From Prevotella scopos JCM 17725 (GTDB lineage: Bacteria > Bacteroidota > Bacteroidia > Bacteroidales > Bacteroidaceae): a stretch of 64,000 nt of DNA. The notes under the pieces are model-generated. The model was not told the DNA's origin, made no database searches, and was given only the letters and a program-made list of their open reading frames with translations. Positions 43,540 through 60,697 of the stretch are shown here, in pieces (position 1 is the stretch's first letter; the number at the start of each line of letters is the position of its first letter). The DNA lies in the NCBI RefSeq assembly GCF_018127785.1, contig NZ_CP072390.1, positions 124,001-188,000 of the forward strand. The letters run 5' to 3'. The position numbers were made by a program, and so were the translations under genes.

Positions 43540-43547
43540 CAAAGATA
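43540..43547 (-). promoter_or_regulatory. -7 element TATCTTTG (minus) for malQ operon
   Basis: Lies 24 bp upstream of the malQ ATG. No TTTG -33 box at the usual distance; the operator at 43601-43616 is 53 bp further upstream. Confidence 0.65.
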
Positions 43548-43600
43548 ATAATATTAATTTGAATAAGCAATACCCTTTTATATGATTTATATCAATTCTT

Positions 43601-43616
43601 GCGCAATCGTTTGCAT
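43601..43616. promoter_or_regulatory. LacI-type operator, malQ copy
   Basis: GCGCAATCGTTTGCAT, identical over 16 bp to the copy at 48811. The core GCAATCGTTTGC is an imperfect palindrome with a central CG as in LacI-family sites. Confidence 0.75.
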
Positions 43617-43904
43617 GGTGATGAACAGGAAGAAGTTCATGGCTAAAGAACTAATGCTCTATAAGTATAAATAAAATAATTTTTGATGCTCACCAATGTT
43701 ACTTTGTTTTCGTGTTAGTGCTTAACACCAATGGTGCGTGGCTGCAACACAGTCGTTAGAAATGGTAAACGAACTTTGCGATTAGGACTATATGAATTGT
43801 AAACTGCGAATGGCAAACTTGAAAGAGGATGTTTGTTAACTGATGATAGTTATTTATTTGCTTAGAAAAGAATACTTTGTTGGGATTAACTTCTCAGTGG
43901 TTTA

Positions 43905-43996
43905 TCATTTCTTATCATGATGATAAATATTTATTTATGTGAGAAGAAATATTTCTTTTCATGAAGAAAAATATTTTTTTTCATGAAAATAATTTG
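43905..43996. repeat. 92-bp phased palindrome element, copy 3 (degenerate)
   Basis: Centres at 43916 (CATG), 43938 (TGTG), 43960 (CATG) and 43982 (CATG) keep the exact 22-bp period, but the left terminal repeat has diverged. It ends about 20 bp before the left inverted repeat of the insertion sequence. Confidence 0.7.
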
Positions 43997-44018
43997 ATAG
44001 GGAGGGGTAGATAGGGGC

Positions 44019-46128
44019 TAACCCAAGTTTAACCGGCAAAAATATTTTTCATAAATTTTCGGGATGTTTTATGTAGTATTAATTTCATAAAAGACTGATA
44101 ATCAGGCATAGGGTATTGTAACGAGGAGTAAAATCTGATTTGTAGGACACCGTCATATCAAAATTATTTTGTTACTTTGCACTCATGCACGCAAATGTAC
44201 AGACACGATTCAACCCTGCAACAGGTGACATGGCTCCTTATTATCGCATTAAGGAGTCATATCGTGACGTGCAGGGTCATGTACATTCGCTAATTCTGTT
44301 GAACATCGGGTTCGAACCTTCACTTACAGCCGTACAGGTTCGAAAAATTGCATACGCACTTACCGAACGCTTCAAAAACAGAAGTACACCCTCGCTTTTC
44401 AAGGAACATCTTGACGGACTTACTCCTATTGAACAGGCAAAGGCTGACGAATGGTGGAGCCGTATGGAGAACGAAGGTGGAATTGATAGGTTTAACAAGG
44501 AAGAGCAGAAATCGCTGAGAAAATATGAGAACTACGTTGACCTTGAGACGGCAAAATATACTGACGCAAGGAATGTCGGTGCTGAGTGGCTCTGCAAGCA
44601 GACGATAGACAAACTGCAATTAGAGGGTTTCCTGCGCAAAAACGGCTGGACGGAGAATACAATACACACAGCTTTGTCAGCATTGATTGTTCGCACAGTA
44701 TATGCTGTTTCTGAACGTTCGTCTTATTATTATTTGCGTGATAACTCGGCTGCTGGTGAACTTTATAGTGGAGTTCCTGGCTGGACACCAGGAATCAATT
44801 CTCTGTATAAAGTCACTGACAAATTATATGAACTAAAGGAACAGTTAGAGCGTCATCTGTGCAACGTTACTGACGATCTCTTTAATATAGACAACAAGTT
44901 GATGCTCTTCGACTTAACCAACTTCTATTTCGAGGGCAGCAAGCGTAACAGCAACAAGGCCAAGTTCGGCCGATCAAAAGAAAAACGCTCTGACTGTAAG
45001 CTACTTGTACTTGCACTATGTATCAATAAAGAAGGTTTTATACGTTATTCTTCTATCTTGGAGGGTAATACAGCAGACCCTAAGTCTCTGCCCAATATGA
45101 TTGATACGTTAGCAAAGAGGAATCCATCACGGACAAAAGATACGCTCGTTGTCATGGATGCAGGTGTTGCCACGGAAGAGAACTTGGAGCTGATCAAAAG
45201 AAAAGGTTACAATTATCTCTGCGTATCCCGTACAAAGATGAAGGACTATACGCTCAGTGATGATAACAAGAGTGTTACGGTAATGGATGCCCGTCGGCAG
45301 AAAATAACGCTGAAAGAGGTTAAGACAGAAGATGACAAGGATTATTATCTCGAAATAACATCTCCTTCGAAAGCTATGACAGAGTCGTCTATGAACAGGG
45401 TCTGGAGAGAGCGTTTTGAGATGGAACTGAAGAGAATAAACGATGGAATCTCCAAGAAAGGTGGAACAAAAACCTATGAAAAGGTTGTTGAACGTACAGG
45501 ACGTGCCATACAGAAGTACCCATCTATAGCGAAGTTCTATCAGATAAGCTACATAAAAGATGAGAAGAAACCCAAGCAGATGCTGCGCGTAGACTGGGAG
45601 ATAAAAGACCTCTCTGCAATGGAGTCCGGTCACGGAGTCTACTTCCTCCGCAGCAATGTCAGGACACTTTCTGAGCGTGTGACATGGGAATACTACAATC
45701 TCATTCGTGAGATAGAATGCACGAACAGGCAACTTAAGAATGACCTCAACCTCCGTCCTATCTATCATCAGAAAGATGAGCGAAGCGACGCACACCTCTT
45801 CTTCGGTTTATTAGCCTATTGGGTGGTAAACACCATCCGCTGTCAATTAAAACGAGAAGGAGAATCCTGTTACTGGACTGAGATTGTACGACGTATGAGC
45901 ACCCAGAAGCTCGTCACAACAAAAGGGAAAAATCCATTAGGTGAGAACATCGAGATGCGCCAATGTAGTAGTCCTTCGAAGCAAGCAAAACAGATATACG
46001 ATAAGTTGAACTTAAAACACTCACCATACAAAAAGAATAAAATTTGTAGGACACAGAGTCCATAAGAAAAACGAGGAGAGTACGGTGACTGCAAGAAATA
46101 GGCGAAAGTGGGGGTTAAACTTGGGCTA
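44019..46128 (+). mobile_element. IS4-superfamily (IS1634-like) insertion sequence
   Basis: Inverted repeats TAACCCAAGTTTAACC (44019-44034) and GGTTAAACTTGGGCTA (46113-46128) match at 15 of 16 positions and enclose one transposase gene. Direct copies of TTTGTAGGACAC occur inside each end (44140 and 46045). No clear target duplication was found, and the outermost bases are uncertain by a few positions. It separates the malQ operon from the permease-LacI unit. Confidence 0.8.
44185..46065 (+). CDS. IS4-superfamily DDE transposase
   Basis: This 626-residue transposase has DDE residues Asp243 (LFDLTNFYFEGS), Asp325 (VVMDAGVATEEN) and Glu511 in LIREIECTNRQLK, where E-x6-K fits the IS4-type YREK signature. 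The DLTNFYFE motif is typical of IS1634/IS1549-like elements. The reading frame is intact, so it may be active. Confidence 0.9.
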   Translation: MHANVQTRFNPATGDMAPYYRIKESYRDVQGHVHSLILLNIGFEPSLTAVQVRKIAYALTERFKNRSTPSLFKEHLDGLTPIEQAKADEWWSRMENEGGIDRFNKEEQKSLRKYENYVDLETAKYTDARNVGAEWLCKQTIDKLQLEGFLRKNGWTENTIHTALSALIVRTVYAVSERSSYYYLRDNSAAGELYSGVPGWTPGINSLYKVTDKLYELKEQLERHLCNVTDDLFNIDNKLMLFDLTNFYFEGSKRNSNKAKFGRSKEKRSDCKLLVLALCINKEGFIRYSSILEGNTADPKSLPNMIDTLAKRNPSRTKDTLVVMDAGVATEENLELIKRKGYNYLCVSRTKMKDYTLSDDNKSVTVMDARRQKITLKEVKTEDDKDYYLEITSPSKAMTESSMNRVWRERFEMELKRINDGISKKGGTKTYEKVVERTGRAIQKYPSIAKFYQISYIKDEKKPKQMLRVDWEIKDLSAMESGHGVYFLRSNVRTLSERVTWEYYNLIREIECTNRQLKNDLNLRPIYHQKDERSDAHLFFGLLAYWVVNTIRCQLKREGESCYWTEIVRRMSTQKLVTTKGKNPLGENIEMRQCSSPSKQAKQIYDKLNLKHSPYKKNKICRTQSP

Positions 46129-46198
46129 AGTAGGAGGTAGAAAAGGTTTGTTTTGTTGATCGATAAGAGGTGTAAAAAGCATTTGTATAAAAGGAAAA

Positions 46199-46226
46199 GG
46201 TGTGCTGAAACACTTTTCAGCACACC
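46199..46226 (-). terminator. Terminator of lacI-permease unit
   Basis: Perfect 12-bp stem GGTGTGCTGAAA / TTTCAGCACACC with a 4-nt loop, 34 bp after the permease stop on the minus strand. Confidence 0.8.
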
Positions 46227-46259
46227 CTTAAATTCAGAGAGATTATAAAAAAGTTATTG

Positions 46260-47594
46260 TTACCCTTGCTCTGCAGGACGATGTACCTTTATGAATCCAA
46301 CGGACATTGCACCGAGGAATAGAGAAACGCCTGCAACAATCATCATATTACTTTGTACAGAACCAACCAACTGAAGTATCACGCCACCAATAGCAGCAGC
46401 GATAATCTGTGGAATACAGATGGTTCCGTTGAACAAGCCAAGATAAGTTCCCAAGTGGCCATAACCCTCGAGCGCATTCGTCACTAAGGTGAATGGCATT
46501 GCCAATATCGCCGCCCAAGCGCATCCGATGAGGAGGAATGGGATGAACATCACGTACTGATTGTGCACGAAGGCTGCGAGAACAAAGCCTGCTCCACCTA
46601 AGATAAGCGAGAAGGAGTATGCGAGTTTGGTATTCTTGAACTGTGGAAGAACCATTGCCCAGACCACTGAACCAATGGCTTGTACGGCAAACAAGATTCC
46701 TACCCAATTGCCTGCTTCTTGATAATCCTTTGTCATCGTTGCATCATGAGCAAGCATGTCAACACCCCAGCAGTTTGCTGCTACGGTTCCATTGGTGTAA
46801 GTCCACATATACATAAAGGCGAACCAGCAGAAGAACTGTACCAAACCAACTTTCCAGAAGGTAGATGGTGCAGACTTTAATAAGGTGAAGAGATTAGACT
46901 TTGTAGTCTCTTCTTTTTTCTGTAAAGAATGGTATTCGGCATAAACCTTTGGTGGCATCTCCTTTACCATGGTTGTGGTATAGATAACACAAAGGATGAG
47001 GATGGCTGCACCGATATAGAAAGAATAGACTACTGAGTCTGGTACTACACCTGATGGAGCTTGGTTAGAGATACCCAAGAAGGTGAAGAGGAAAGGAAAA
47101 ACATAACCTGCAATAGAACCTGCATTGCAGAGGAAACTCTGAATAGAGTAGGCGAGTGTCTTCTGTTTCTCGTTGACCATGTCTCCCACCAACATCTTAA
47201 AGGGTTGCATAGCCATATTGATACTTGTGTCGAGGAACATCAATGAGACGAGTCCAAACACCATAGCAGTTGACACAGCCATACCTAAAGAGCCTGCATT
47301 TGGCAATAGACACATCACGAGGACGGATATAGCTGCACCTACGAAAAGGTAAGGAATGCGGCGTCCGAAGCGTGTCCATGTTTTATCTGAGAATGAACCT
47401 ACAATAGGCTGCACGACGATACCCATCAGCGGAGGAAGTATCCAAAAATAGCTAAGATTATGAGGATCAGCACCTAAAGTCGCAAAGATACGTGAGATGT
47501 TGGCACTCTGTAGTGCGTATGCAATCTGTACTCCGAAGAACCCGAAGCTGAGGTTCCAAAGTTGCCAGAAGCTTAAGTTAGGCTTTTGTTTCAT
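46260..47594 (-). CDS. MFS disaccharide/maltodextrin permease (SLC45-like)
   Basis: This protein has 444 residues from the ATG at 47594. It has twelve hydrophobic segments; the pattern LSFGFFGVQIAYALQSANISRIF ... GSFSDKTWTRFGRRIPY resembles SLC45/GPH-like sucrose and maltose transporters of Bacteroidetes. The RxGRR loop follows helix 2. It probably brings maltose or maltodextrin from periplasm to cytoplasm, where MalQ acts. It is 85 bp downstream of the LacI gene on the same strand without a clear promoter in between. Confidence 0.88.
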   Translation of the reverse strand: MKQKPNLSFWQLWNLSFGFFGVQIAYALQSANISRIFATLGADPHNLSYFWILPPLMGIVVQPIVGSFSDKTWTRFGRRIPYLFVGAAISVLVMCLLPNAGSLGMAVSTAMVFGLVSLMFLDTSINMAMQPFKMLVGDMVNEKQKTLAYSIQSFLCNAGSIAGYVFPFLFTFLGISNQAPSGVVPDSVVYSFYIGAAILILCVIYTTTMVKEMPPKVYAEYHSLQKKEETTKSNLFTLLKSAPSTFWKVGLVQFFCWFAFMYMWTYTNGTVAANCWGVDMLAHDATMTKDYQEAGNWVGILFAVQAIGSVVWAMVLPQFKNTKLAYSFSLILGGAGFVLAAFVHNQYVMFIPFLLIGCAWAAILAMPFTLVTNALEGYGHLGTYLGLFNGTICIPQIIAAAIGGVILQLVGSVQSNMMIVAGVSLFLGAMSVGFIKVHRPAEQG

Positions 47595-47679
47595 TGTTAT
47601 ATTTGTTTTTAGAATATTATTGGACTTATCAGACTTTTGGGCTAATTGACTCAATTGGGCTAATAAATGCTAAGATAAA

Positions 47680-48705
47680 TTACCTTGTAGTCCCCCTGAT
47701 AATCAGCCTTGTTCTCACTACTCGTTTCTCTATTTTATCCTTAGGCAATCTTCCTTCCACCTGATCGATGAGAATACTTGCTGCCTCTTCTCCTATGCGG
47801 ATTCCTCTTTGTTCCACAGTTGTCAGCATTGGGTCGCAGGCAATGGCACGTTGGCCATTAGTGAACCCACAGATAGAGATGTCTTCTGGTACACGGAAAC
47901 CTAATCGTTTGCAGGAATAAAGAATACCAATAGCCGTATCATCATTGACGGCAAAGAAGGCATCTGGTGGTTCGGGAAGTCGCATTATGCTTGGCGTGAT
48001 AAGCTCGGCTTCTGATCTGTTGTCGCAGTTCTTTATCAGTTGCTCGTTAGGATGCATACCATTTTTCAGTAAGGCGTCAAGATATCCATTATAACGATTC
48101 TTTGCGATTTGCATTGTTAAGGACGTGCCGTAATAAGCAATACGCTTGCAACCAGTATTAATAAGGTGTGTGACGGCAGAGAAAGCACCCATATAGTCAT
48201 CAACAACTACTCGGCTCGCATTTATACCCGTACTGATACGATCGTAGAATACCAAAGGAATACCCTTGTCAATGAGCGTTTGGAAATGATCGTACTTCAT
48301 AGTGTTCTTGGCTTGAGAGACAATAATTCCGCAAACCTTACTTTCCGAAAATGCTCGGCAGATCTTCACTTCGTCCTCATAGCTCTCTCGGCTCTGTGCA
48401 ACCATAATTCGATAGCCACGTGAAGAAGCCTCTTCTTCGATACCAGAAAGAATAGATGAGAAGTAGAAGTGGTCAAGCTGTGGCACGATGACACCGATAA
48501 CCTTAATCGGTTGTACCTTACTTTTGCGCAGACTCTCAGCAAGAAAGTTAGGATAGAAGTTATGTTCTTGTGCATACTTCTTTATTGCCTCACGTTTTTC
48601 AGCAGAGATACGAGGGCTGTCTTTGAGCGCACGAGAGACGGTAGCGACCGAAACACCTAGGTCTCGAGCTATATCTTTCATTGTTATGTTAGTTTCGTCA
48701 CTCAT
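47680..48705 (-). CDS. LacI-family regulator of the starch genes
   Basis: This protein has 341 residues from the ATG at 48705; an ATG at 48750 overlaps the promoter. The N-terminal HTH and hinge are ITMKDIARDLGVSVATVSRALKDSPRISAEKREAIKKYA, with the hinge helix near AESLRK. The rest is a periplasmic-binding-protein-like sensor (IGVIVPQLDHFYFSSILSGIEEEA, FFAVNDDTAIGILYSCKRLG, ICGFTNGQ) for a sugar ligand. Matching operators stand upstream of malQ, lacI/susC and the amylase gene, all at the same distance from the promoter, so it probably activates them. Confidence 0.92.
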   Translation of the reverse strand: MSDETNITMKDIARDLGVSVATVSRALKDSPRISAEKREAIKKYAQEHNFYPNFLAESLRKSKVQPIKVIGVIVPQLDHFYFSSILSGIEEEASSRGYRIMVAQSRESYEDEVKICRAFSESKVCGIIVSQAKNTMKYDHFQTLIDKGIPLVFYDRISTGINASRVVVDDYMGAFSAVTHLINTGCKRIAYYGTSLTMQIAKNRYNGYLDALLKNGMHPNEQLIKNCDNRSEAELITPSIMRLPEPPDAFFAVNDDTAIGILYSCKRLGFRVPEDISICGFTNGQRAIACDPMLTTVEQRGIRIGEEAASILIDQVEGRLPKDKIEKRVVRTRLIIRGTTR

Positions 48706-48747
48706 GCGATTTAACTTTGTTTTTAGTCTGCTAACTGTTTTATATCG

Positions 48748-48755
48748 CAAATATA
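48748..48755 (-). promoter_or_regulatory. -7 element TATATTTG (minus) for lacI-permease
   Basis: Lies 42 bp upstream of the lacI ATG; the shared operator begins 55 bp further upstream. Confidence 0.6.
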
Positions 48756-48810
48756 CATATTTTCTAGTAATTTTTTGACTTATGTCAATTTAATTATATT
48801 ATATTTATTT

Positions 48811-48826
48811 GCGCAATCGTTTGCAT
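48811..48826. promoter_or_regulatory. LacI-type operator between lacI and susC
   Basis: GCGCAATCGTTTGCAT. It is 54 bp from the susC -7 element and 55 bp from the lacI -7 element, placed almost exactly midway between the divergent promoters. Confidence 0.8.
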
Positions 48827-48880
48827 TGATTTTAATAACGATTTTAAAACGAAAAAAGTATAAAGTAGCTTAATATCAAC

Positions 48881-48888
48881 TATCTTTG
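48881..48888 (+). promoter_or_regulatory. -7 element TATCTTTG for susC operon
   Basis: TAnnTTTG match with a 100-nt leader to susC; no TTTG -33 box at the usual spacing. Confidence 0.65.
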
Positions 48889-48988
48889 CAACCGAAAAAG
48901 CCCACGAAACGGCTATTAACCTAACGTTTTAATCGAACTAAACGATATAACTTTAATCAATTTATAAATTACTTTAACAATAACAAAG

Positions 48989-51900
48989 ATGAAGCAGGTA
49001 AAATGCAAAATTCCTGTAAGGATATTGACTCTATTGTTGGGTCTATTCCTTTCAGTTAGTGCCTTTGCACAGTCTATGATTACAGGACAGGTGAAGGATG
49101 CTACTGGCGAGCCAGTCATTGGTGCTTCTGTCCTTATCAATGGGACAAGTAATGGTACAGTGACCGACCTTGATGGTAACTTCTCTGTCAATGTACAGCC
49201 AGGTGCTACTTTGACAATCTCTTACATTGGATTCCAGAAACAACAGGTGGCTGCAACCAATGGTATGGTAATTACACTTCAGGAAGACCAAGCACAGCAG
49301 ATGAATGAGGTTGTTGTCATTGGTTATGGTGCTGTTAAGAAGAGCGACCTTACAGGTTCGGTGACAGCCTTAAAGCCAGATGGCAAGAATAAGGGTCTTG
49401 TTGTTAATGCACAGGACATGCTTGCTGGTAAGGTTGCCGGTGTGAGTGTAACGAGCGATGGTGGTACTCCTGGTGGCGGTGCTAACATTCGTATTCGTGG
49501 TGGTTCTTCTTTGAACGCATCTAACAATCCATTGATTGTGATTGATGGTGTGGCTATGGACCAGACTGGTATTAAGGGTGTTAGCAATCCTTTGTCACTT
49601 GTAAACCCACAGGATATTGAGTCTTTCAACGTTTTGAAGGATGCTTCTGCTACTGCAATCTATGGTTCTCGTGGTTCAAATGGTGTTATCATCATTACAA
49701 CCAAGAAAGGACGTCGTGGCTTGCAGGTGTCTTATAATGGTAGCTTCACCGTTAGTAAGAATTCAAAGAACCTTGACGTCTTGTCTGCCGATGAGTATCG
49801 TAGCCTCATAGCAAACAAGTTTGGTACTGATCTTTATACCCTCGATGCTAATGGTAATCAAGTTCCAACAGCTTACTCACGCCTTGGTAAGGCAAATACT
49901 AATTGGCAGAATGAAATCTTCCGCACTGCTTTTAGCCACGACCATAACGTAGCCGTTTCTGGTCAAGTTGCTAACTGGTTGCCTTATCGTGTTAGTGCAG
50001 GCTACACAAATCAGCAGGGTATCATCAAGACTTCTAACTTTGAGCGTTTCACTGGAGCGTTGACATTGAGCCCTTCTTTCTTGAATGACCACTTGAAGGT
50101 TACGTTGAATGCTAAGGGAATGTGGACAAAGAATCGCTATGCTGATGGTGAGGCTATCAAGGCAGCACGTCAGTTTGACCCAACACAGCCAGTCTATGCG
50201 TCTGGTTATGACAACTTCGGTGGCTACTACCAGTGGCTTGATGATGGTACAGCGCTCAATGATAGCAGTTGGCCAAAGACCTATTATTCATTGGCAACAA
50301 AGAATCCTGTGTCTATTCTTAACCTAAAGAACGACCGTGCTATCAGCCGCGACTTCCTTGGTAGTGCCGATGTTGATTATAAAGTTCATGGCTTTGAAGA
50401 CCTCCGTTTCCACGTTACTGCAGGTGTTGATGTTGCTAAGGGACGTCAGGTAACAGATGTTGATCCAGCCTCTCCACAGGCTATCTATTATGGTTCTTAT
50501 GGATGGGAATCACAGTTGAAACGTAACATGCAGCTCTCTGCATACGCTCAGTACTACCACGATTTCAATGATAAAGCAAAGAATCACTTCGATATCATGG
50601 CTGGTTATGAGTGGGCACACTTCTGGCATAACACTAAAAACGCTTATTGGAGTTACTATCCATCAACAAACGGTGATGCAACTCTTGCTGGCAAACAACG
50701 CAACTATGCACCTTATTACTATGCAACAGAGAACTATCTTGTATCCTTCTTCGGCCGTGCAAACTGGTCTTTGATGGATGGTCGTTATATGGTAACAGCA
50801 ACCGTACGTAATGATGGTTCTTCACGCTTCAAGGAGCATTGGGCAACGTTCCCATCATTCGCTTTCGCATGGCGTATCAATGAAGAGAATCTTTTCAAGC
50901 AGATTGACTGGTTGTCAGACTTGAAACTTCGCCTTAGCTGGGGTATGACTGGTCAGCAGGAAGGTATCGGCGACTATAATTACTTTGCTATATACGAAAT
51001 GAATAAAGGTAATGAATCTTACTATCCAATCGCTGGTGATGGTTCTTTGGCTCGTCCAAAGGCATATGATCCAAACTTGAAGTGGGAGACTACTACCTCT
51101 TATAACGTAGGACTTGATTGGGGTATTCTCAAGCAGCGCCTCACTGGTAGCATTGATTGGTACTATCGCAAGACCAACGACTTGCTCAACAATGCAACCG
51201 TACCAGCAGGTGCTAACTTCCGTAATCAGGTAATGAGCAACATTGGTTCTATGTATAATATGGGTGTTGAAACAAGTCTCCACTGGTTGGCAGTGAACGC
51301 TAAGGACTTCAACTGGACAATGGATTACAACTTCACCTATAACTATAATAAGATTACGAACCTCAATGGTGGTAGCGATCCAAACTATTTCGTACCAACA
51401 GGAGGTATCTCTGCTGGTACAGGTGGTAACATCCAGGCACAGCATGTAGGTAATGCAGTTAACTCTTTCCACGTATTCCAGCAGGCATATGATAAGAATG
51501 GCAAGCCGTTGGAGGGCGTAGTTGTCGACCGCAACAGCGATGGTAAGATTACCGATGCAGATAAGTACTACTACAAGGCACCTGCAGCACCTGTAACGAT
51601 GGGCTTTGCTTCTCGTTTCGAGTATCGTAACTGGGACCTTGGTTTCGCACTCCGTGCAAGTCTTGGTAACTATGTTTACAATGATGCTTTTGCAAGTACT
51701 TCTAATATGTCTAACTCAGAAATATTTGTAAAGAGCAAGTTCCTCGTGAACCGTCCTACAGATGTAGTAGCAGACAACTGGTTGTCAACCGAGACTACAT
51801 CTACTCAGACAGACTACTGGGTACAGAATGCTTCTTTCTTGAAGTTGGATAATGTAACCTTGGGTTATAGCTTCGCTAATCTTCTCAAGCAGGGTTCATG

Positions 51901-52054
51901 GAATGGAATCACTGGTCGTATTTATGGAACTGTGAATAACGTGTTCTGCCTTACTAAGTATAAAGGTCTCGACCCAGAGGTGTTCAATGGTATTGACAAC
52001 AACCTCTATCCACGTCCAATCTCATTCATCTTGGGTTTGAACCTGAATTTCTAA
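48989..52054 (+). CDS. SusC-like TonB-dependent starch oligosaccharide transporter
   Basis: This 1021-residue outer-membrane protein has a signal peptide to about residue 28, a carboxypeptidase-D-like regulatory beta domain (MITGQVKDATGEPVIGASVLINGT...), a TonB-box region (MNEVVVIGYGAVKKSDLTGSV), the plug with NVLKDASATAIYGSRGSNGVIIITTKKG, and a 22-strand barrel ending IGL...LNLNF-like (SFILGLNLNF). Pairs with the SusD protein 21 bp downstream to import maltooligosaccharides. Regulated by the LacI operator upstream. Confidence 0.95.
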   Translation: MKQVKCKIPVRILTLLLGLFLSVSAFAQSMITGQVKDATGEPVIGASVLINGTSNGTVTDLDGNFSVNVQPGATLTISYIGFQKQQVAATNGMVITLQEDQAQQMNEVVVIGYGAVKKSDLTGSVTALKPDGKNKGLVVNAQDMLAGKVAGVSVTSDGGTPGGGANIRIRGGSSLNASNNPLIVIDGVAMDQTGIKGVSNPLSLVNPQDIESFNVLKDASATAIYGSRGSNGVIIITTKKGRRGLQVSYNGSFTVSKNSKNLDVLSADEYRSLIANKFGTDLYTLDANGNQVPTAYSRLGKANTNWQNEIFRTAFSHDHNVAVSGQVANWLPYRVSAGYTNQQGIIKTSNFERFTGALTLSPSFLNDHLKVTLNAKGMWTKNRYADGEAIKAARQFDPTQPVYASGYDNFGGYYQWLDDGTALNDSSWPKTYYSLATKNPVSILNLKNDRAISRDFLGSADVDYKVHGFEDLRFHVTAGVDVAKGRQVTDVDPASPQAIYYGSYGWESQLKRNMQLSAYAQYYHDFNDKAKNHFDIMAGYEWAHFWHNTKNAYWSYYPSTNGDATLAGKQRNYAPYYYATENYLVSFFGRANWSLMDGRYMVTATVRNDGSSRFKEHWATFPSFAFAWRINEENLFKQIDWLSDLKLRLSWGMTGQQEGIGDYNYFAIYEMNKGNESYYPIAGDGSLARPKAYDPNLKWETTTSYNVGLDWGILKQRLTGSIDWYYRKTNDLLNNATVPAGANFRNQVMSNIGSMYNMGVETSLHWLAVNAKDFNWTMDYNFTYNYNKITNLNGGSDPNYFVPTGGISAGTGGNIQAQHVGNAVNSFHVFQQAYDKNGKPLEGVVVDRNSDGKITDADKYYYKAPAAPVTMGFASRFEYRNWDLGFALRASLGNYVYNDAFASTSNMSNSEIFVKSKFLVNRPTDVVADNWLSTETTSTQTDYWVQNASFLKLDNVTLGYSFANLLKQGSWNGITGRIYGTVNNVFCLTKYKGLDPEVFNGIDNNLYPRPISFILGLNLNF

Positions 52055-52075: not shown

Positions 52076-53707
52076 ATGAATACTAAATTCAAATATATAT
52101 TCTCTACAGCAGCACTTTTGCTGTCAGTAGGGTTCACCTCTTGTATAGGCGATTTGGATGTAAAACCAATTGATCCAAACCTTAATACAAAGGAAAATAC
52201 GTCGCCAGAAAGCGCATTCAATAAGTGCTATGCTCATATTGCTATGGCTGGTAACGGTGGAGCTAATGGTGATAGCGATGTTGATGGTATCGATGGTGGA
52301 ACCAGTGGTTACGTACGTCAGCTATTCAATTCACAGGAGTTGACCACTGATGAGGCTATCTGCGCATGGGGTGATGAGGGTATTTCTAACATGAACTTCG
52401 ATAGTTATGACGCTTCACATCCAATGTTGAAGGGTTTTTACTATCGTCTTTATGCGGGTATCACCTATTGCAATCAGTATCTTGCAGACTTCGGTGACTA
52501 CAACGCAACGATGTCAGCAGAGGTTCGTTTCATCCGTGCTTTGAATTATTACTATCTCTTGGACGGATGGGGTAATGTTCCTTTCACAACAGCAATATCT
52601 TCTGCTAAGCCAGCTCGCATCCAGCGTGCAGACCTTTATAAGTGGCTTATTGATGAATTGAAGAATGAGGTTGAGCCTAATTTGAACGATGCAAGTCCTA
52701 AGACTTCAGCCACTACTGGTTATGGTCGTGTCGACAAAGCTGCTGCTTGGATGCTCTTGGCTCGTCTTTATATGAATGCTGAGGTTTATACAGGTACTGC
52801 TGATTGGACTAATGCTAAGTTATATGCAAAGAAGGTTATCGACTCTCCTTATAAGCTCTATACCACCAAGAAGGGTCAGTGGAGTGCTTATCAGCAACTC
52901 TTTATGGGCGATAATGGTGAGAATGGTGCTTCTGTTGAGGCTATCTTCCCTATCCTTCAGGATGGTTTGAAGACTACTTCATATGGTACAACCCTCTATC
53001 TCATGGCTGGTTCTAACGACAACAGCGAGCATATCAAGAGTGCTACCGTTGCAGGTAACAATACAACTGGTGGTTGGGCTGGTAACCGTATGCGTACAGA
53101 CCTCGTATTGAAGTTCTTCCCAAATAACGATGCTCCTAATGTTGCTGCATACGCTATGCCAGCAGCTGCAGATGACGATCGTGCCCTCTTTGATGGTGAA
53201 GGTCGTAATGTAAGCAATGGTGACGATGAGAAGGGTGTAAAGGTATTTACCAACGGATTCTCTGTTTGTAAGTTTAATAACTTTAAGACGGACGGCAGTG
53301 CAGGTCATAACTCGCTCTTCCCAGACGCCGACTTCTTCCTCATGCGTGCTGCTGAGGCTTACTTGATGTATGCTGAAGCAGATGCACGTCAGAACAATGG
53401 AACGACAACTGCACAGGGAACTGCTTATATCAATGCGCTCCGTACACGTGCTAATGCTACTACTCAGACCGCTTATTCACTCCGCCAGATCTGTGACGAG
53501 TGGAGTCGTGAGTTCTACTTCGAAGGCTTGCGTCGTACAACACTTATCCGTTTCGGCTACTTCGGTGGTAATGTTAATTACAACTGGAGCTGGAAGGGTG
53601 GTGTGAAGAACGGCCGTAACTTCGACTCTCATCTTAACCTCTTCCCAATTCCGACAAGTGATATGGTTGCTAATAAAGCCAACTTGATTCAGAATCCGGG
53701 CTATTAA
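52076..53707 (+). CDS. SusD-like outer-membrane starch-binding lipoprotein
   Basis: This 543-residue lipoprotein has lipobox FTSC (Cys23). The all-helical SusD fold shows IRALNYYYLLDGWGNVPFTTA in the first half and the C-terminal DEWSREFYFEGLRRTTLIRFG helix plus LFPIPTSDM...NPGY ending, all hallmarks of the RagB/SusD family. It acts as the lid of the SusC pore. The next gene is 279 bp away with a 92-bp repeat element in between. Confidence 0.95.
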   Translation: MNTKFKYIFSTAALLLSVGFTSCIGDLDVKPIDPNLNTKENTSPESAFNKCYAHIAMAGNGGANGDSDVDGIDGGTSGYVRQLFNSQELTTDEAICAWGDEGISNMNFDSYDASHPMLKGFYYRLYAGITYCNQYLADFGDYNATMSAEVRFIRALNYYYLLDGWGNVPFTTAISSAKPARIQRADLYKWLIDELKNEVEPNLNDASPKTSATTGYGRVDKAAAWMLLARLYMNAEVYTGTADWTNAKLYAKKVIDSPYKLYTTKKGQWSAYQQLFMGDNGENGASVEAIFPILQDGLKTTSYGTTLYLMAGSNDNSEHIKSATVAGNNTTGGWAGNRMRTDLVLKFFPNNDAPNVAAYAMPAAADDDRALFDGEGRNVSNGDDEKGVKVFTNGFSVCKFNNFKTDGSAGHNSLFPDADFFLMRAAEAYLMYAEADARQNNGTTTAQGTAYINALRTRANATTQTAYSLRQICDEWSREFYFEGLRRTTLIRFGYFGGNVNYNWSWKGGVKNGRNFDSHLNLFPIPTSDMVANKANLIQNPGY

Positions 53708-53776
53708 TTAAGGTGTAATCAATGGCTGGAAGGTCTGATGAAAGCTGAGAATTAACTTCTTGATAATCATCTACGG

Positions 53777-53986: not shown

Positions 53987-55165
53987 ATGAAATCAATAAT
54001 TAAGTCATCGTTGCTGTTGTGTGCAGGTGTGGCACTGTTCTCTGCCTGTGACAAGGACCTGGACAATAATCCAGTTCTTCAGTCACCAAAGACATTTGTT
54101 CTGAACACACCAGCTTACGCTGCACAAACAATAGATTTAAAGGTTGCTGAGAGCCTGAAGTTCACATGGTCGCAGCCTGAATATGGTTTCCCTGTAGCTG
54201 CTGAATATGGTATGCAGTTCTCAACTACCAACACTTGGACAAAGTCTGTGGACGCTGTTGTTGATATGGATGCTGAACGTGGTAACTATGCTGCTGTTGG
54301 TTCGCCAACAGGTACAGCTTCTACCTCTGTTCCTGCAGCTGATCTTGCAACGGCTATTCAGAAGATGGAACGCTATGAGGAGACTACTGTCCCTGCAACA
54401 CAGGAACTCTACGCACGTGTTTACTCATTAGTAAATGGTGATACAATCTACTCTAACCCTGTAAAGATGAGTGTTGCTCCTTATTATATTGAGCTTTCTG
54501 ACGCTCCTGTTGAGACTTGGTATCTCGTCGGTGGTAACTTCGGTGATGGCTCATGGGGTAATAGTCAGGTGGTTCCATTGTTGCCAATGGAAGGCCAGGA
54601 GTATGATAAGAAGACAGGTAAGGGCGTAATTTCTTGGACTGGTTATCTGTCAACAGCAGGCTTCAAACTGAAGAAGAACCCAGAGAATTGGGATGCTGGT
54701 CAGGTTGGTCAGGGCGCAAGCTATGGCGAGTTCCTTTATAATGATGGCGGTTCTTCTGATATCAAGGTTCCAACAGCTGGTTACTATACCATTACTTTTG
54801 ATACTAAGAATGTGAAACTGACAATCGCAGAGTACACTGGTGCTACACCTACTGTTTACAACTCTATGGGTCTTCCTGGTAAGCATGACAGCTGGAATGC
54901 TGCAGGAACACCAATGACTGCACAGACAACTGTTGTAGAGAATCATGATTGGAAGGCTACTGTGACCTTCAATGAGAAGTCTACTGGTGCTGATGGTGAG
55001 GGCTGTAAGTTCGCTGCTAACGGTACTTGGGACGTAAACTGGGGTTCTGAAGCATTCCCATATGGTGTTGCAACGAAGGGCGGTAAGAATGTTCGCAATG
55101 GTAAGGGTACTTACACTGTTTACTTCAACGACATCACAGGTCAGTATTCTTTCGTAAAGCAGTAA
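53987..55165 (+). CDS. SusE-like starch-binding lipoprotein
   Basis: This 392-residue lipoprotein has lipobox FSAC (Cys21). An N-terminal SusE-type Ig domain (about 30-165: SLKFTWSQPEYGFPVAAEYGMQFST) is followed by two starch-binding beta modules (WYLVGGNFGDGSWGNSQVVPL ... and GLPGKHDSWNAAGTPMTAQ...) in which aromatic residues could stack on glucan. It would hold starch at the surface for the SusCD pair. No catalytic site. Confidence 0.88.
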   Translation: MKSIIKSSLLLCAGVALFSACDKDLDNNPVLQSPKTFVLNTPAYAAQTIDLKVAESLKFTWSQPEYGFPVAAEYGMQFSTTNTWTKSVDAVVDMDAERGNYAAVGSPTGTASTSVPAADLATAIQKMERYEETTVPATQELYARVYSLVNGDTIYSNPVKMSVAPYYIELSDAPVETWYLVGGNFGDGSWGNSQVVPLLPMEGQEYDKKTGKGVISWTGYLSTAGFKLKKNPENWDAGQVGQGASYGEFLYNDGGSSDIKVPTAGYYTITFDTKNVKLTIAEYTGATPTVYNSMGLPGKHDSWNAAGTPMTAQTTVVENHDWKATVTFNEKSTGADGEGCKFAANGTWDVNWGSEAFPYGVATKGGKNVRNGKGTYTVYFNDITGQYSFVKQ

Positions 55166-55186
55166 TTTATTAAAGATGATAATAGA

Positions 55187-55226
55187 GGGTGTGTCAGCAG
55201 GCACAATTAGTATGACACACCCTTTT
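55187..55226 (+). terminator. Hairpin with T-run between susE and susF
   Basis: GGGTGTGTCA (55187-55196) pairs perfectly with TGACACACCC (55213-55222), then TTTT. It may be an attenuator that lowers susF expression relative to susE. Confidence 0.65.
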
Positions 55227-55247
55227 CACATAACAAGAAGAATCGAA

Positions 55248-56254
55248 ATGAAGAAATTATTAATCATGGCAAGTGCCGCATTGTTACTTGCTTCTTGCGG
55301 TAGCGATGAATATGAAGCATGGACTGCACCACAGAGTAACAGCGCAGAGACTGCCAGTACGGTTACATTCACTGTAAGCCAAGCAGCAGCCATCGACTTC
55401 AATACAGAGACAGCAGACTCTGTTCAGTTGTTTGTTCCAAAGGTGGTGTCAACAGACTCTGTCGCTTCTCAAACCTTAACAGCTGTACTTTCTTATAACA
55501 ACAAGACGGCTACACTTAACGCAAGCAAAGGGGTAAGGTGAAGAGTACAGAACTCGTTTCTGCCGTAGAAAGCCTCTATGGTAAGAATGGCGACCTCCAT
55601 CAGGTTGCTTTGACCGTAACAGATAAAGTGAAGTTGCTCCGTGGTGAAGGCTTCAGACTTTCTCAGAGTGTGACTGCAAACGTTACTTGTGTTGCACCAG
55701 CTTTCACTCAGTATCTTTATATGTCAGGTGATGCTAATGGCTGGTCATTTAGCAATCCGCTTTATAGCGCAGCTGCTGATGGTAAGTACACTGGCTTTAT
55801 GTATCTCAATCAGAATGGCTTTAAGTTTGCTACTCAGCAGGATTGGAATGGTACTGATTATGGTACTGATCTCGTTGAGAAGGGTAGTAATATCGTGATG
55901 ACTGAACCAGCAGGTTTCTATAAGGTGGATATTGACCTCACATCACAGGCTCTTACCTACACAGCTATCAATCGCATTGGTATTATTGGTTCTGCAACTC
56001 CAAACGGATGGAACAGCGATCAGGCAATGACTTACAACGCTACTGAGAAGTGTTGGGAGATTAAGGGCATCACACTGACTGCTGGTGAGATGAAGTTCCG
56101 TGCGAATAGCGATTGGGTGTTAGATTGGGGTGGCTCATTAGCTGATATTACTCTCAAGGGTGGTAACATTAATGTTACAGCTGGTAAGTATAATATTAAG
56201 CTCTATCTCTTGTGTGATACGAAGTCACACTGTACAATGGAACTTGTTCCTTAG
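55248..56254 (+). pseudogene. SusF-like starch-binding lipoprotein, frameshifted
   Basis: The first frame (ATG 55248) gives a lipoprotein signal with lipobox LASC (Cys17) and an N-terminal Ig-like domain up to NASKGVR, ending at a TGA at 55539-55541. The second frame, from about 55530 to 56254, continues KSTELVSAVESLYGKNGDLHQVAL and carries two carbohydrate-binding modules (LYMSGDANGWSFSNPLYS; IGIIGSATPNGWNSDQAM). One extra G in the GGGG at 55532-55535 would restore KGGKVKSTEL. So the protein is disrupted at a short G run, by mutation or sequencing error. It is the last gene of the sus operon; a terminator follows. Confidence 0.82.
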
Positions 56255-56281
56255 ACTTTAAACATCAAAATACATATTTAG

Positions 56282-56320
56282 GGTGCGTTGGCTTAGTCTT
56301 GCTCAACGCACCTTTTTTCG
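56282..56320 (+). terminator. Terminator of susCDEF operon
   Basis: GGTGCGTTG (56282-56290) pairs with CAACGCACC (56304-56312), followed by TTTTTT. Confidence 0.8.
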
Positions 56321-56486
56321 TGCTTCCTATACGTGTCTGAGAATCAGTAAGAACAATGCATTGTTTTAGTTCCATAAGCTTGGGACAGAAGTTACTTGCC
56401 TTTGCTAATTTAATTACTATGAAGTGCCGTTTACTGTATTTTGTCCCAACTCTGATAGCTTTTTCTTCTTAGTCAGGACAATTCGT

Positions 56487-59033
56487 TTACAATCTGGACT
56501 TCTCTGCATTGCCAGCACCCGTACCTTTGTATTTACTTCGCTTAGCATTAAAGTTGTAAGTGATGGTCAGTGAGACAGCGCGGGAGTAGTTGTAGCAATC
56601 TTTGTCTAATGTTGTTCCATAGCCACGAAGTGTCCATTGTTCTCGTTCGGACTTGAAGATATCGTCCGCAGAGAGTATGAATATTAGACGATTATTGTAG
56701 AATGTTTTGCGTAAGGCGAGATTCATCCTTGCCCAACCATTGGATGTTTGGAAACCATCATATATCTTTGTGCGTGCTCTGAAGTCAACTCTTGCTATGA
56801 AAGTCTTAGAGAAAGAAAACTGATTACGTAGTGAGATTACAAAGCAGGGATTGTTTTTTACTAATGTACCATTATCTAATGGTGCATGGAAACGCTGTTG
56901 GATATAATTGATTTCTGCTGTTGGCTGGTAGATTCCGAACTTAGGAGAAGCCGAGATACTTGCATAAAGGTTCTCAGAATGGTCGTAGTTGTAGGTTGAA
57001 GAGAATGAGATAGCCTGATTCTTGTATAGTTTATGGGTCCAGAACATCACGTCTTTGTAGTACTTATAGCCTATCGAGAGACTCAACCAACGATATATCC
57101 CGTTTATTTCTACGTTGTGTATCTGTTCAGGATGCAGTTCCGGATTACCCCCTTCATAGGCATAACGATTGTTATACTGTATGAAGTTGCGCAGAGTACG
57201 GTAGCTTGGACGATGGATTTTACTGTTATAATTGAGTTGAAAGCTACATTTCTCATGATTCCATGATAGGGAAAAGGAAGGGAAGAGATTGCTGTAATGT
57301 TTACTGGCATCGTCTTGTTTCACTCCAAAAGAGTAATAGTTGGAGGTTACATGCTCATATCGTAGTCCTGTGTTAAGTATGAAATTGCCGAAAGAATGGG
57401 TATATTCAGTGAATAGCGCATGATACCTTTCCTTGATATTGGTCTCTGATGCCGCTACAATCTGCTCTTTGTTATTGAAATCCCCACGTGAGTTTGTGCT
57501 GGAAAGTTCCGTTCCCCAGTATATATTTCCGCCCCATAATGGGTGACTAAGAACCAGTTTCCCTGCCCAGAGGTTGCTGTGTTGGTTACCCGTGGAGTGT
57601 ACTTCACGATTAGGGAACTCGTTGGAGTGTTCCGATTGGACGTGCCTTTCTTTTGTGCCTATACTCATGTAAGAAGCATTGAAGTCTATGCTAAGTTTTC
57701 CAAGCTGTCCCACATAATACAAGTCTGCCTGATGTCGAGCAGGAACACGCACTTCCACGTCTCCTTTCTGTGCTATTGTTCCTTCTAAAGTACCATTCTT
57801 ATAGATGTTTTGGTTGTTATCTATAGACCCATCCATGTGATAGTCGGTGTAATAACGATAAGCTCCACCGATGGTATTGCTATCATTTATCAAATAAGAA
57901 GCACCAATATTTTCAGAAAGGATATTATGGTTACTCTCGTATCTGATATGTTGTTGCGTCTCAATATCCTCTCTACTGGTATGTATTTGAGAGCAGAGAT
58001 AATTCTTCTCTTGGTCTTTATAGTTCATCCAAGTGATGTTATTGAAAAGCTCCCAGTGCTTAGTTCTATAGGTAAACTTGGTTGCCTCCGAACCTGTCCA
58101 CTGTCCATTGTATTCTATCCGAGTATCATTGTGAAAGCTAAGACCATCAGCTTGCCTACGAATAGTTTTGATTCGGATGACAGACTGTACTTGTGCATCG
58201 TATTGCGCACCGGGACTTGTAATGACTTCTACACTCTTTATGTTGTCAGACTTTAGTTCCGTAAGTTCTTTCATATCGCTTATTCTGCGATTATTGACGT
58301 ATATAAGCGGTGTACCCTTGGCAAACACCTGCACATTATCACCATTGGTTGTGACACGAGGGAGCTGTCCTAAGACATCCATAGCTGTTCCTAATTTCGA
58401 TAAAAGGGAATTTTCAACGTTGATACTCATCCCTCCATTGGTCTGTTTGTATAGTGGATGGGACGTTTTAATGGTCACTTCCTTCAGTTTTAAGGCATCG
58501 GGTTGAAGCTGAATGATACCTGCTTGTTCTGTTGAAAAGGTACGATAAACTGGTTTATAACCCACGTAACTAATGCGGGCGATGACCTTTGATGGCTCAA
58601 ATGGTACTACGAAGACACCACTCTCATTACTAACTCCACCTGATATAGCACTGGAGTCGACAACAGACAATAGTAGAACATTAGCGTAAGGTACTGGCTG
58701 TCCAGTCTCATCAATGACCTTTCCTGTCAAATGTCGCCTTGTTTTGTGTGTACATTCCACCATGATAACGTCTCCGCGACATGTCATCCGAATGGGATAG
58801 AAGCCTATGAGTTGTCCAATAGCATCTGGAACACTTTTATTCCTGATGTTAGTAGTGATGCGGAAGTCCTCTAAGTCGTTGTAAATGAAGTTTACGGTGT
58901 ATCGGTTTTGCAGTTGGTTTAACTCCTTCAACGCCTGTGCCATGGATACATTATTATATTGTCGACTGATACGTTGGGCTGATACTCCATGCGAGCCGAT
59001 GAGGAGTAGCAGAATAATAAGATACCTTTCCAT
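56487..59033 (-). CDS. TonB-dependent receptor with STN signalling domain
   Basis: This 848-residue outer-membrane protein has a signal peptide to about Ala19, then an STN-like N-terminal signalling domain (about 28-92), a carboxypeptidase-regulatory beta domain (LTGKVIDETGQPVPYANVLLL...), a plug segment (LGTAMDVLGQLPRVTTNGD) and a barrel of the outer-membrane OMP_b-brl_2 type. It is the third gene of an ECF sigma/anti-sigma/receptor operon. The STN domain would pass the ligand signal to the anti-sigma protein. It is not a SusC of the usual 1000-residue kind, so the ligand is unclear. Confidence 0.88.
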   Translation of the reverse strand: MERYLIILLLLIGSHGVSAQRISRQYNNVSMAQALKELNQLQNRYTVNFIYNDLEDFRITTNIRNKSVPDAIGQLIGFYPIRMTCRGDVIMVECTHKTRRHLTGKVIDETGQPVPYANVLLLSVVDSSAISGGVSNESGVFVVPFEPSKVIARISYVGYKPVYRTFSTEQAGIIQLQPDALKLKEVTIKTSHPLYKQTNGGMSINVENSLLSKLGTAMDVLGQLPRVTTNGDNVQVFAKGTPLIYVNNRRISDMKELTELKSDNIKSVEVITSPGAQYDAQVQSVIRIKTIRRQADGLSFHNDTRIEYNGQWTGSEATKFTYRTKHWELFNNITWMNYKDQEKNYLCSQIHTSREDIETQQHIRYESNHNILSENIGASYLINDSNTIGGAYRYYTDYHMDGSIDNNQNIYKNGTLEGTIAQKGDVEVRVPARHQADLYYVGQLGKLSIDFNASYMSIGTKERHVQSEHSNEFPNREVHSTGNQHSNLWAGKLVLSHPLWGGNIYWGTELSSTNSRGDFNNKEQIVAASETNIKERYHALFTEYTHSFGNFILNTGLRYEHVTSNYYSFGVKQDDASKHYSNLFPSFSLSWNHEKCSFQLNYNSKIHRPSYRTLRNFIQYNNRYAYEGGNPELHPEQIHNVEINGIYRWLSLSIGYKYYKDVMFWTHKLYKNQAISFSSTYNYDHSENLYASISASPKFGIYQPTAEINYIQQRFHAPLDNGTLVKNNPCFVISLRNQFSFSKTFIARVDFRARTKIYDGFQTSNGWARMNLALRKTFYNNRLIFILSADDIFKSEREQWTLRGYGTTLDKDCYNYSRAVSLTITYNFNAKRSKYKGTGAGNAEKSRL

Positions 59034-59037
59034 AGCT

Positions 59038-59730
59038 TTACTCTATTGTTAATGTGTTATCAGAATAGCTAACTTTTACGCGGTCAAAGGCATTCAGCAG
59101 TTCTATATTCTGTTGAAGACTACACTGCCTATCCCATTTGAAGTAGAGGCGGATGTGTGTTGATACAGGATTTAGTGCTTTCACGTCGACATGATAATAT
59201 GCTGCCATAGCATCAACGATGGTCTTCAAAGATGTATCCTCAAACACAATAGGTTGCGGAGGAATACTATCTGTCTTGTGAAGGAGTACTCGGCTAAGGC
59301 TGTCTGAAACTGCTTGGCGTTCTGCCTGCACCTTCTTTATAGAGTCTGTAGCCGTTAGATGAGGAGTTTTTGGGTGTGTTTCAACCTCCTCTTTACTATT
59401 AAAGAAAGGCAGAATACCCAACTGAACTGTAGCAGCAAACGCCAAGCCTGATATAAAGATGATACCGATAGTAGATGCCGCAATCCGCTTCCAGTTACGT
59501 CTTTGTGGTATAGAATGTTCTATCGCAAAGCGTTCCCACTCGGTATTCACGTCTATGTCCTCATCTTCATGAAGTTTCATTGCACGTTTAGTCATAGCCA
59601 GATTGGATGCAAACGAGCTTATCTCCTCATCCGCAAGCAGTGTTTCTATCTCTTTCGTGGTGTATTTCTCAGGATGGTCCAGCATGTTGAGGAATATCCT
59701 TTGTTTCTCTTCTGATTGCTTGTTGTTCAT
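59038..59730 (-). CDS. FecR-like anti-sigma protein
   Basis: This 230-residue protein has a cytoplasmic N-terminus (1-82), one membrane helix at about 83-104 (IAASTIGIIFISGLAFAATVQ), and a periplasmic C-terminal domain of the DUF4974 type (VFEDTSLKTIVDAMAAYYHVDVKAL ... LYFKWDRQCSLQQNIELLNAF). It is shorter than classical FecR proteins, lacking the central FecR beta domain. It starts 4 bp inside the sigma gene and ends 4 bp before the receptor gene, so all three are co-expressed. Confidence 0.88.
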   Translation of the reverse strand: MNNKQSEEKQRIFLNMLDHPEKYTTKEIETLLADEEISSFASNLAMTKRAMKLHEDEDIDVNTEWERFAIEHSIPQRRNWKRIAASTIGIIFISGLAFAATVQLGILPFFNSKEEVETHPKTPHLTATDSIKKVQAERQAVSDSLSRVLLHKTDSIPPQPIVFEDTSLKTIVDAMAAYYHVDVKALNPVSTHIRLYFKWDRQCSLQQNIELLNAFDRVKVSYSDNTLTIE

Positions 59731-60221
59731 TGTTTTGCTTGGTTAAGTTGCCTTTTAATGATGTTAATAGCCTCTGAAAGATGGTGATACACAGTTACTC
59801 TGCTCACTCCTAAGTCATCGGCAATGCGCTGAAAGGGTAGTCCTTGCACATGGCGTAGGCGTAGAATCTGACGACGAATAGGCGGCTCTAAATGTTCAAT
59901 GAGTAGCATTAGGCGGTCAAGTAGTGTTTCGTCATGTTCGGAGAGAATAGTCTTTGCATCATTCAAAAGTAGTTTTGAGGTCCTTTCTCGTATGTCTTTA
60001 TGTGCAATAATATTCAGACAACGATTGCGGACAGCCCTTATCAAATAGCCTTCCTCCGTCTCTGGAAGCAGTATTATACCCTCTTCAAAGACCTTGGCAA
60101 ATACATCACTCACCACGTCTTTACATTCATCTTGATCGTAGAGAATCCCTTTTGCCACCCGATACATCGGTTGGTAATAACGCTTGAAAAGCCTTTCTAT
60201 GTCAGTATTTTCATGTATCAT
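59727..60221 (-). CDS. ECF-type RNA polymerase sigma factor
   Basis: This 164-residue sigma factor has region 2 (YQPMYRVAKGILYDQDECKDVVSDVFAKVFEE) and region 4 (LEPPIRRQILRLRHVQGLPFQRIADDLGVSRVTVYHHLSEAI). Typical of the Bacteroidetes ECF group paired with FecR-like anti-sigma and TonB receptors. Overlaps the anti-sigma gene by 4 bp. Confidence 0.93.
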   Translation of the reverse strand: MIHENTDIERLFKRYYQPMYRVAKGILYDQDECKDVVSDVFAKVFEEGIILLPETEEGYLIRAVRNRCLNIIAHKDIRERTSKLLLNDAKTILSEHDETLLDRLMLLIEHLEPPIRRQILRLRHVQGLPFQRIADDLGVSRVTVYHHLSEAINIIKRQLNQAKQ

Positions 60222-60288
60222 ACACTATTCTTACAGCTCAGAAGGTGGAAATGTAAAGCTTAACAATGATTTTTATTGTATTAGATTA

Positions 60289-60296
60289 CAAAGGTA
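60289..60296 (-). promoter_or_regulatory. -7 element TACCTTTG (minus) for sigma operon
   Basis: Minus-strand TAnnTTTG match 67 bp upstream of the sigma ATG. Confidence 0.5.
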
Positions 60297-60447
60297 ACGA
60301 TTATACTTTAATAAGCTGTTTACTATCAAGAAAAACGTTAAAGTATGCTGTTTGTATATCATTACGACTTATCTTCTCTCTTCAATGGCTATCTTTTTCG
60401 TTATTGGTATTCATTGTTTGTTTAAGGCATAGCCGTTGTTATCTATA

Positions 60448-60513
60448 TTACAAGCCTCCTGTAAGGGTGTTACAAGCCTTTTGTAAGGGTGTTACAAGCC
60501 TTTTGTAATGAAT
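60448..60513. repeat. Three-unit 22-bp tandem array of TTACAA-n5-TTGTAA palindromes
   Basis: Units start at 60448, 60470 and 60492, exactly 22 bp apart: TTACAAGCCTCCTGTAAGGG, then TTACAAGCCTTTTGTAAGGG, then TTACAAGCCTTTTGTAATGA. Each contains an inverted repeat TTACAA/TTGTAA around a 5-bp centre. It lies between the divergent sigma operon and amylase gene. Confidence 0.8.
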
Positions 60514-60620
60514 CGGAATGTTATCTTTTAATCAAAGTTTAGCATGTTCTATGCAGAAATGGTTGATGGTGAGGGTGAGAATCTGATGTTAGTTCTTCAC
60601 TTAATAAACCTATGTTCAAA

Positions 60621-60636
60621 GTGCAAACGTTTGCAT
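60621..60636. promoter_or_regulatory. LacI-type operator, amylase copy
   Basis: GTGCAAACGTTTGCAT; TGCAAACGTTTGCA is a perfect 14-bp palindrome, the most symmetrical of the three copies, 53 bp before the amylase -7 element. Confidence 0.8.
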
Positions 60637-60689
60637 GAAAAATAATGAAAGACGTGTGGTGGGTAGCAATATTATGTATTGAAAATCAC

Positions 60690-60697
60690 TAACTTTG
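60690..60697 (+). promoter_or_regulatory. -7 element TAACTTTG for amylase gene
   Basis: TAnnTTTG match 37 bp before the ATG at 60735; no TTTG -33 box at the normal spacing. Confidence 0.65.

Follow-up and report, generated by a model that had tools for sequence, protein, structure and literature searches.

A Bacteroides regulon study (PMC3878776) describes four LacI regulators, all for uronate, and gives SusR for starch. In Flavobacterium IR1, insertion mutants of susC, of the adjacent LacI-type gene and of the maltose transporter gene nearby all shared one phenotype (PMC9131120); the mutants had been selected for that phenotype, and the authors allow polar effects. Identical phenotypes would be expected if that LacI-type regulator were positive. 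Here we analyzed a 64,000-nucleotide stretch of the Prevotella scopos JCM 17725 genome (NZ_CP072390.1, positions 124,001 to 188,000), which we call the window. It carries a gene for a LacI/GalR-family regulator (lacI) together with malQ, susC and an alpha-amylase gene, and the promoters of these four genes have a palindromic operator upstream at a nearly constant distance. We consider it quite probable that this protein, acting in the cytoplasm, activates the starch genes in a class I-like manner from the fixed upstream site. The preliminary description of the window had guessed at an activator from this one genome; comparison with other genomes supports the guess, and the case is now strong, if still indirect. 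At the level of DNA comparison, the operators, their near-fixed spacing and its conservation, the missing -33 box, a one-sided A/T block and the co-occurrence of regulator and operator can be regarded as established.

Operator spacing in the window and in related loci

The proposed activator is encoded at 47680..48705 on the minus strand (341 aa, ATG at 48705). It consists of an N-terminal LacI-type helix-turn-helix (PF00356, residues 8-53, E 1.9e-15, 56.8 bits against a cut-off of 27) and a sugar domain resembling periplasmic binding proteins (PF13377, E 1.5e-29, 103.7 bits against a cut-off of 26.5). Only two LacI-type DNA-binding domains, including this one, were found in the genome, which comprises two large contigs of 1.86 and 1.44 Mb; the second LacI-type protein gave no match to the first at E 1e-10.

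Three operators in the window match GYGCAAWCGTTTGCAT without mismatch, at the places given in the preliminary description: GCGCAATCGTTTGCAT at 48811..48826, common to lacI and susC, GCGCAATCGTTTGCAT again at 43601..43616, upstream of malQ, and GTGCAAACGTTTGCAT at 60621..60636, upstream of the amylase gene. Counted from the operator centre, the first T of the TAnnTTTG -7 box lies 61.5 bp away for malQ (TATCTTTG, 43540..43547, minus strand, first T at 43547), 62.5 bp for susC (TATCTTTG, 48881..48888, plus strand, first T at 48881), 63.5 bp for lacI (TATATTTG, 48748..48755, minus strand, first T at 48755) and 61.5 bp for the amylase gene (TAACTTTG, 60690..60697, plus strand, first T at 60690). 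The range of 61.5-63.5 bp reported earlier for the four genes therefore holds, and these coordinates agree with the earlier placing of the 48811 operator between divergent promoters at gaps of 54 and 55 bp. All three operators are clear of the predicted boxes and thus do not lie over a promoter as the operator of a classical LacI-type repressor does.

The operator motif by itself is unremarkable in the window: at up to 3 mismatches it has 5 matches where 1.74 are expected, and 5 of 100 shuffled sequences have at least as many. It is the joint spacing that is improbable, with P ~8e-9 for at least four of six slots having a box at 61.5-63.5 bp, given the local density of 6 TAnnTTTG per 3690 strand-bases. 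In the whole genome, TGCAAWCGTTTGCA occurs at 0-1 mismatch in six places, three of which are the window operators. C1:282132 and C2:974105 were rejected as regulon operators, both lying inside open reading frames, and C2:1759524 was rejected for having no box within 150 bp downstream on either strand. At C2:1759524 (L001 2025-2038), a perfect TGCAAACGTTTGCA overlaps, at its end, a TATCTTTG box that precedes an epimerase-like gene, which may be a repressor-like place or chance.

For comparison we collected 80 loci with a close LacI relative from named genomes and 28 from 151 family genomes. The resulting 108 loci, in which identity to the window LacI is 49 to 100%, overlap in species (L024 and L088 look alike), so the counts that follow are not independent; L001-L004, which are stretches of the own genome without the window lacI, were left out. 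In 105 of the 108 (all except L018, L034 and L078), the 300 bp upstream of lacI contain an operator with at most 2 mismatches. From this operator, TAnnTTTG on the lacI side is at 60.5 (6 loci), 61.5 (37), 62.5 (46) or 63.5 bp (15) in 104/105, and both operator and spacing thus recur beyond the genome in which they were first noticed. On the other side, usually that of susC, the box is at 61.5 (47) or 62.5 bp (43) in 90/105; among the 15 misses, two have a strict box at 64.5 and two have TAATTTTA at 61.5 or 62.5. The lacI start itself lies anywhere between 76.5 and 210.5 from the operator. On the lacI side of three loci there are boxes at 51.5-52.5, closer by one helical turn, each time together with another at 61.5-63.5, indicating that the position is fixed and not merely the helical face. 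Two overlapping operator-like sites with a 12-bp spacing are present upstream of lacI in L024, L028, L088, L174, L180 and L187.

The same spacing was seen at operators elsewhere in the 80 named loci. With the lacI/susC operators excluded on purpose, 60 further operators were found at up to 1 mismatch; a strict TAnnTTTG lies at 60-64 bp from 37 of them, where 0.09 are expected (from bins at 70-202 bp), and a relaxed TAnnTT[TC][GA] from 54, where 0.7 are expected. The downstream gene, where identified, is malQ, amylase or susC. Seventeen of the 23 strict misses have TAnnTTTA or TAnnTTCG in that place, 16 of these before malQ or amylase; the remaining six (L008, L026, L027, L031, L039, L082) have no relaxed box there either.

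The geometry could in principle reflect chance, or a single ancestral promoter inherited without selection on its spacing. The loci are related, and susC spacers keep some identity (0.45 against 0.33 when shuffled). Median spacer identity between loci is 0.31 for amylase, 0.36 for malQ and 0.37 for lacI, near the shuffled range of 0.28-0.33, yet these spacers are equal in length; spacer length is thus kept far better than sequence, and the spacing is common to four different genes. The pattern of an operator, 50-62 bases and TAnnTTTG occurs in 76/399 family genomes against 2 hits of a backward control (judged by eye). Together with the probability calculated for the window alone, these results make chance or passive inheritance highly improbable.

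Regulator and operator also occur together. The CG-centred palindrome is kept beside lacI in the 105/108 loci, and among 151 genomes, with LacI scored as present at E 1e-80 or better, 26 have both LacI and the operator-promoter pattern, 2 have LacI only, 4 have the pattern only and 119 have neither. The LacI-family protein would bind this palindrome, TGCAAWCGWTTGCA, as a dimer.

Promoter composition and mode of regulation

We compared, in the window and the 80 loci, TAnnTTTG boxes located 12-150 bases before open reading frames of 150 codons or more. A -33 TTTG (interval -25 to -17) was present in 3/155 operator-bearing promoters versus 31/102 others (Fisher 3e-11), and in 2/86 regulon versus 29/94 other promoters after clustering at 60% identity (P 1.6e-7). 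By class, the counts in named loci were 2/77 for lacI, 1/73 for susC, 0/23 for malQ and 0/14 for amylase; in the more distant loci L094-L112, 2/32 promoters had the element. In promoters without an operator, TTG is commonest at -23 and -22. The earlier claim that none of the four window promoters has a TTTG -33 box stands for all of them, with the correction that the malQ element is weak and not absent. The target promoters thus have the poor -35/-33 element expected under class I activation, and most sites lie upstream at a fixed distance, clear of the predicted -33/-7 region. Between operator and box, no strong motif is shared by the aligned columns of the four gene classes. An A-rich stretch at -29 to -25 is confined to susC, and a weak C at position -20 was noticed in susC (43/73), malQ (13/23) and amylase (6/14) promoters and not in those of lacI.

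Base composition around the operator was analyzed for the 37 operators of malQ (23) and amylase (14) with a strict box in the named loci, which were treated as one-sided. At +12.5 to +14.5 from the operator centre, 107/111 bases are A/T on the promoter side and 75/111 on the other side (P 1e-8), and at 22.5-24.5 the counts are 93 versus 65 of 111 (P 5e-5), P values that are optimistic because the offsets were picked after the base profile had been viewed. At 17.5-19.5 there is no side difference (65 versus 74 of 111, P 0.27). The two-sided lacI/susC operator is A/T-rich at the block positions on both flanks. Ordinary promoters have the outer block as well, and it may be an UP-like feature of promoters in general; the inner block is more pronounced in regulon promoters, with A/T fractions at -48 and -47 of 0.95 and 0.94 versus 0.71 and 0.61. 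We infer that the one-sided block is a dock for the C-terminal domain of the polymerase alpha subunit beside the regulator.

Taken together, the missing -33 box, the fixed distance and the A/T block on one side are best read as class I-like activation. TAnnTTTG occupies -12 to -5 at transcript starts of Flavobacterium psychrophilum, according to a study of these starts (PMC9723704). Placed likewise here, the box would put the operator centre at about -73.5 to -75.5, that is, some 74 bp upstream of the transcript start, where the site should not block the promoter directly. From there the regulator would most likely dock the alpha C-terminal domain on the A/T-rich DNA beside the operator and activate RNA polymerase at promoters with a TAnnTTTG -7 box but lacking a proper -33 box. 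Its predicted targets are malQ, susC, the amylase gene and lacI itself, the last by positive autoregulation. It would sense maltose or malto-oligosaccharides in the cytoplasm, fed by the adjoining MFS transporter, and would do the job of membrane-bound SusR in Bacteroides thetaiotaomicron. More broadly, we lean with some reserve towards a starch regulon that, in Prevotella, Segatella, Hoylesella and related genera, would be governed by a LacI-family class I activator of its own. The cis-code would be rigid: the operator centred 62 ± 1.5 bp from the -7 box, an A/T dock at +13.5 and no -33 box. This activator would replace SusR and move sensing from the periplasm to the cytoplasm, and its two-sided operator would switch on the divergent lacI and susC genes simultaneously.

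Looping between the three operators was set aside, since every promoter has its own operator at a fixed distance. It is further disfavoured by the protein, whose match extends to residue 340 of 341, with no extra length after the sugar domain; a tetramer would not be expected.

A dual regulator, working from one site as an activator in its sugar-bound form and keeping the promoter silent in its empty form, would fit all of the geometry, and some LacI-family proteins are described as working both ways (PMC4451989). The repressing half of such a scheme is not required by anything in the sequence, and we regard the dual reading as quite unlikely.

Departures from the expected pattern

Several observations weigh against activation or against the generality of the spacing rule. 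LacI-family proteins are mostly repressors, and a fixed upstream site can also mean repression by contact, as with Escherichia coli GalR, which represses galP1 from -60.5; CytR acts by blocking another activator. From its upstream site, the window protein might accordingly touch RNA polymerase or hinder another activator and so repress, until malto-oligosaccharides release it. Both contact repression of the GalR type and anti-activation need a fixed phase, as activation does. Under repression, regulon promoters without a -33 box should be weak unaided and the missing box is left unexplained, and the spacer holds no strong motif shared by the four gene classes.

The promoters themselves provide mixed evidence on this point. 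Operator-like sequence at up to 3 mismatches overlaps 18/190 promoters, where shuffling gives 1.8. Only one of these overlaps (1/190, L070) is a second operator at 1 mismatch, which argues against a repressor; the other 17 have 2-3 mismatches. Thirteen of the 18 are lacI -7 boxes that read TGCATAnnTTTGCA or something close to it, and four (three susC, one amylase) begin at the end of the -7 box. TGCA stands directly before the box in 14/77 lacI promoters and in none of the susC (0/73), malQ (0/23), amylase (0/14) or background promoters (0/102). In some lineages, TGCA and the -7 box may thus form a weak autoregulatory site, and the operator-like boxes could mean autorepression; they weigh somewhat against a pure activator at lacI and count in favour of a repressor. 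Loci with TGCA-preceded lacI boxes of the TGCATAnnTTTGCA form are L024, L029, L038, L040, L041, L044, L045, L060, L067, L077 and others. On balance, repression from the upstream site seems unlikely, and class I-like activation remains our preferred reading.

At single promoters, window malQ keeps ATTG, with its TTG at -23, the commonest TTG place of other promoters, and the susC side has no box of either kind at 60-65 in 11/105 loci. Outside the family, 15 homologues from other families of the order were scanned at up to 3 mismatches and with no chance control, and the 60.5-63.5 spacing was found in 5 and was absent in 10. The five (L174, L183, L185, L187, and L180 via its second tandem site) are all beside a susC-type gene, and the three other susC-linked loci, of eight in total, are negative. 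No box at 60-64 was found for 27 homologues from the phylum (35-43% identity), 15 of which have an operator-like site at up to 2 mismatches, or in 20 further loci, mostly with a Flavobacterium-like LacI in another gene context, one of which has an operator-like site. A geometry general to Bacteroidota LacI-family proteins was therefore not supported: the spacing rule is closely kept inside the family and weakens further out. Another LacI subgroup of the order, grouped by eye (L166, L167, L170, L171, L176, L177), has CGTGTnCGnACACG-type palindromes with boxes at 24.5, 25.5, 43.5 or 46.5 in 4/6 and looks repressor-like.

The starch locus and known systems

The gene next after lacI encodes the MFS sugar transporter (46260..47594, minus strand; PF07690/PF13347). 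Also on the minus strand are malQ, a GH77 4-alpha-glucanotransferase with CBM20 (40822..43515; PF02446, E 1.8e-147), downstream of it a type I pullulanase (38811..40724; TIGR02104 above cut-off), and a neopullulanase-like GH13 protein with cyclomaltodextrinase-type N- and C-terminal domains (36682..38661; PF00128, PF09087, PF10438). The plus strand carries a susC-type TonB-dependent transporter gene (48989..52054; TIGR04056 above cut-off), susD (52076..53707; PF07980), a gene for a susE-type surface protein (53987..55165; PF14292) and the alpha-amylase gene (60735..62765; PF00128).

An IS1634-family transposase gene (44185-46065) separates the MFS gene from the malQ operator; it belongs to an element at 44019-46128 with 16-nt terminal inverted repeats (44019-44034 and 46113-46128); the MFS-malQ interval of Prevotella jejuni (L005) has no open reading frame of at least 200 aa. 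The gene at the SusF position (55176-56254, labelled by eye) is split into frames 55176-55541 and 55538-56254 where P. jejuni L005 has a single frame of 353 aa, which may be a real split or a sequencing error. Three minus-strand genes at 56487-60221, between the sus genes and the amylase gene, appear by eye to encode proteins like an outer-membrane receptor, a FecR-like anti-sigma factor and an extracytoplasmic-function (ECF) sigma factor. About 110 bp upstream of the amylase operator, at 60431-60508, are three direct repeats with a 22-bp period and TTACAAGCC..TGTAA half-sites.

CcpA and PurR are among the solved structures matched by the window LacI sequence, which scores far below the NCBIfam equivalog cut-offs of both; the operators of CcpA and PurR are CG-centred palindromes of the same type as those described here. 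MalR of Lactococcus is likewise a LacI-family member, for which we know of no fixed-spacing regulon with SusC/SusD. MalR of Lactococcus lactis is described as an activator of maltose genes (PMC4451989), as proposed for the window LacI; the likeness is one of described role, and MalR differs in working at promoters of the Gram-positive type. Closer in gene content are Bacteroides fragilis and Bacteroides uniformis, in which predicted sus loci without SusR have a LacI-type regulator with MFS and GH65 genes (PMC11633381); the passage on that regulator is silent on its operator, on promoter spacing and on whether regulation is positive or negative. The KdgR, UxaR, UxuR and UxmR proteins of Bacteroides are LacI-family sugar regulators, as the window protein is predicted to be, and differ in controlling uronate pathways, with no LacI regulator of starch in the list given by the regulon study (PMC3878776).

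In the literature searched, mostly outside subscription journals, we recognized no report of a LacI-family activator at such starch promoters, and a closer precedent may exist in work on the B. fragilis starch operon. LacI proteins in sus loci and LacI-family maltose activators were known before; what appears new, as far as we searched, is the conserved spacing rule, the absence of a -33 box and, resulting from them, a predicted activator for the whole lineage. The results suggest a simple promoter code for starch genes, one that would apply to a large group of bacteria from gut, mouth and rumen. The 62-bp rule may be used to find members of the regulon and to design sugar-inducible promoters in commensal Prevotella. 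If true, activation by this protein would be a clean case of a repressor-type family in an activator's role.

SusR of B. thetaiotaomicron activates starch genes on maltose, according to the regulon study (PMC3878776), which is the role that we propose for the window LacI. SusR is a membrane protein with a periplasmic sensor; the window protein has LacI-type domains only, and the signal is thus predicted to be sensed inside the cell and not, as by SusR, in the periplasm.

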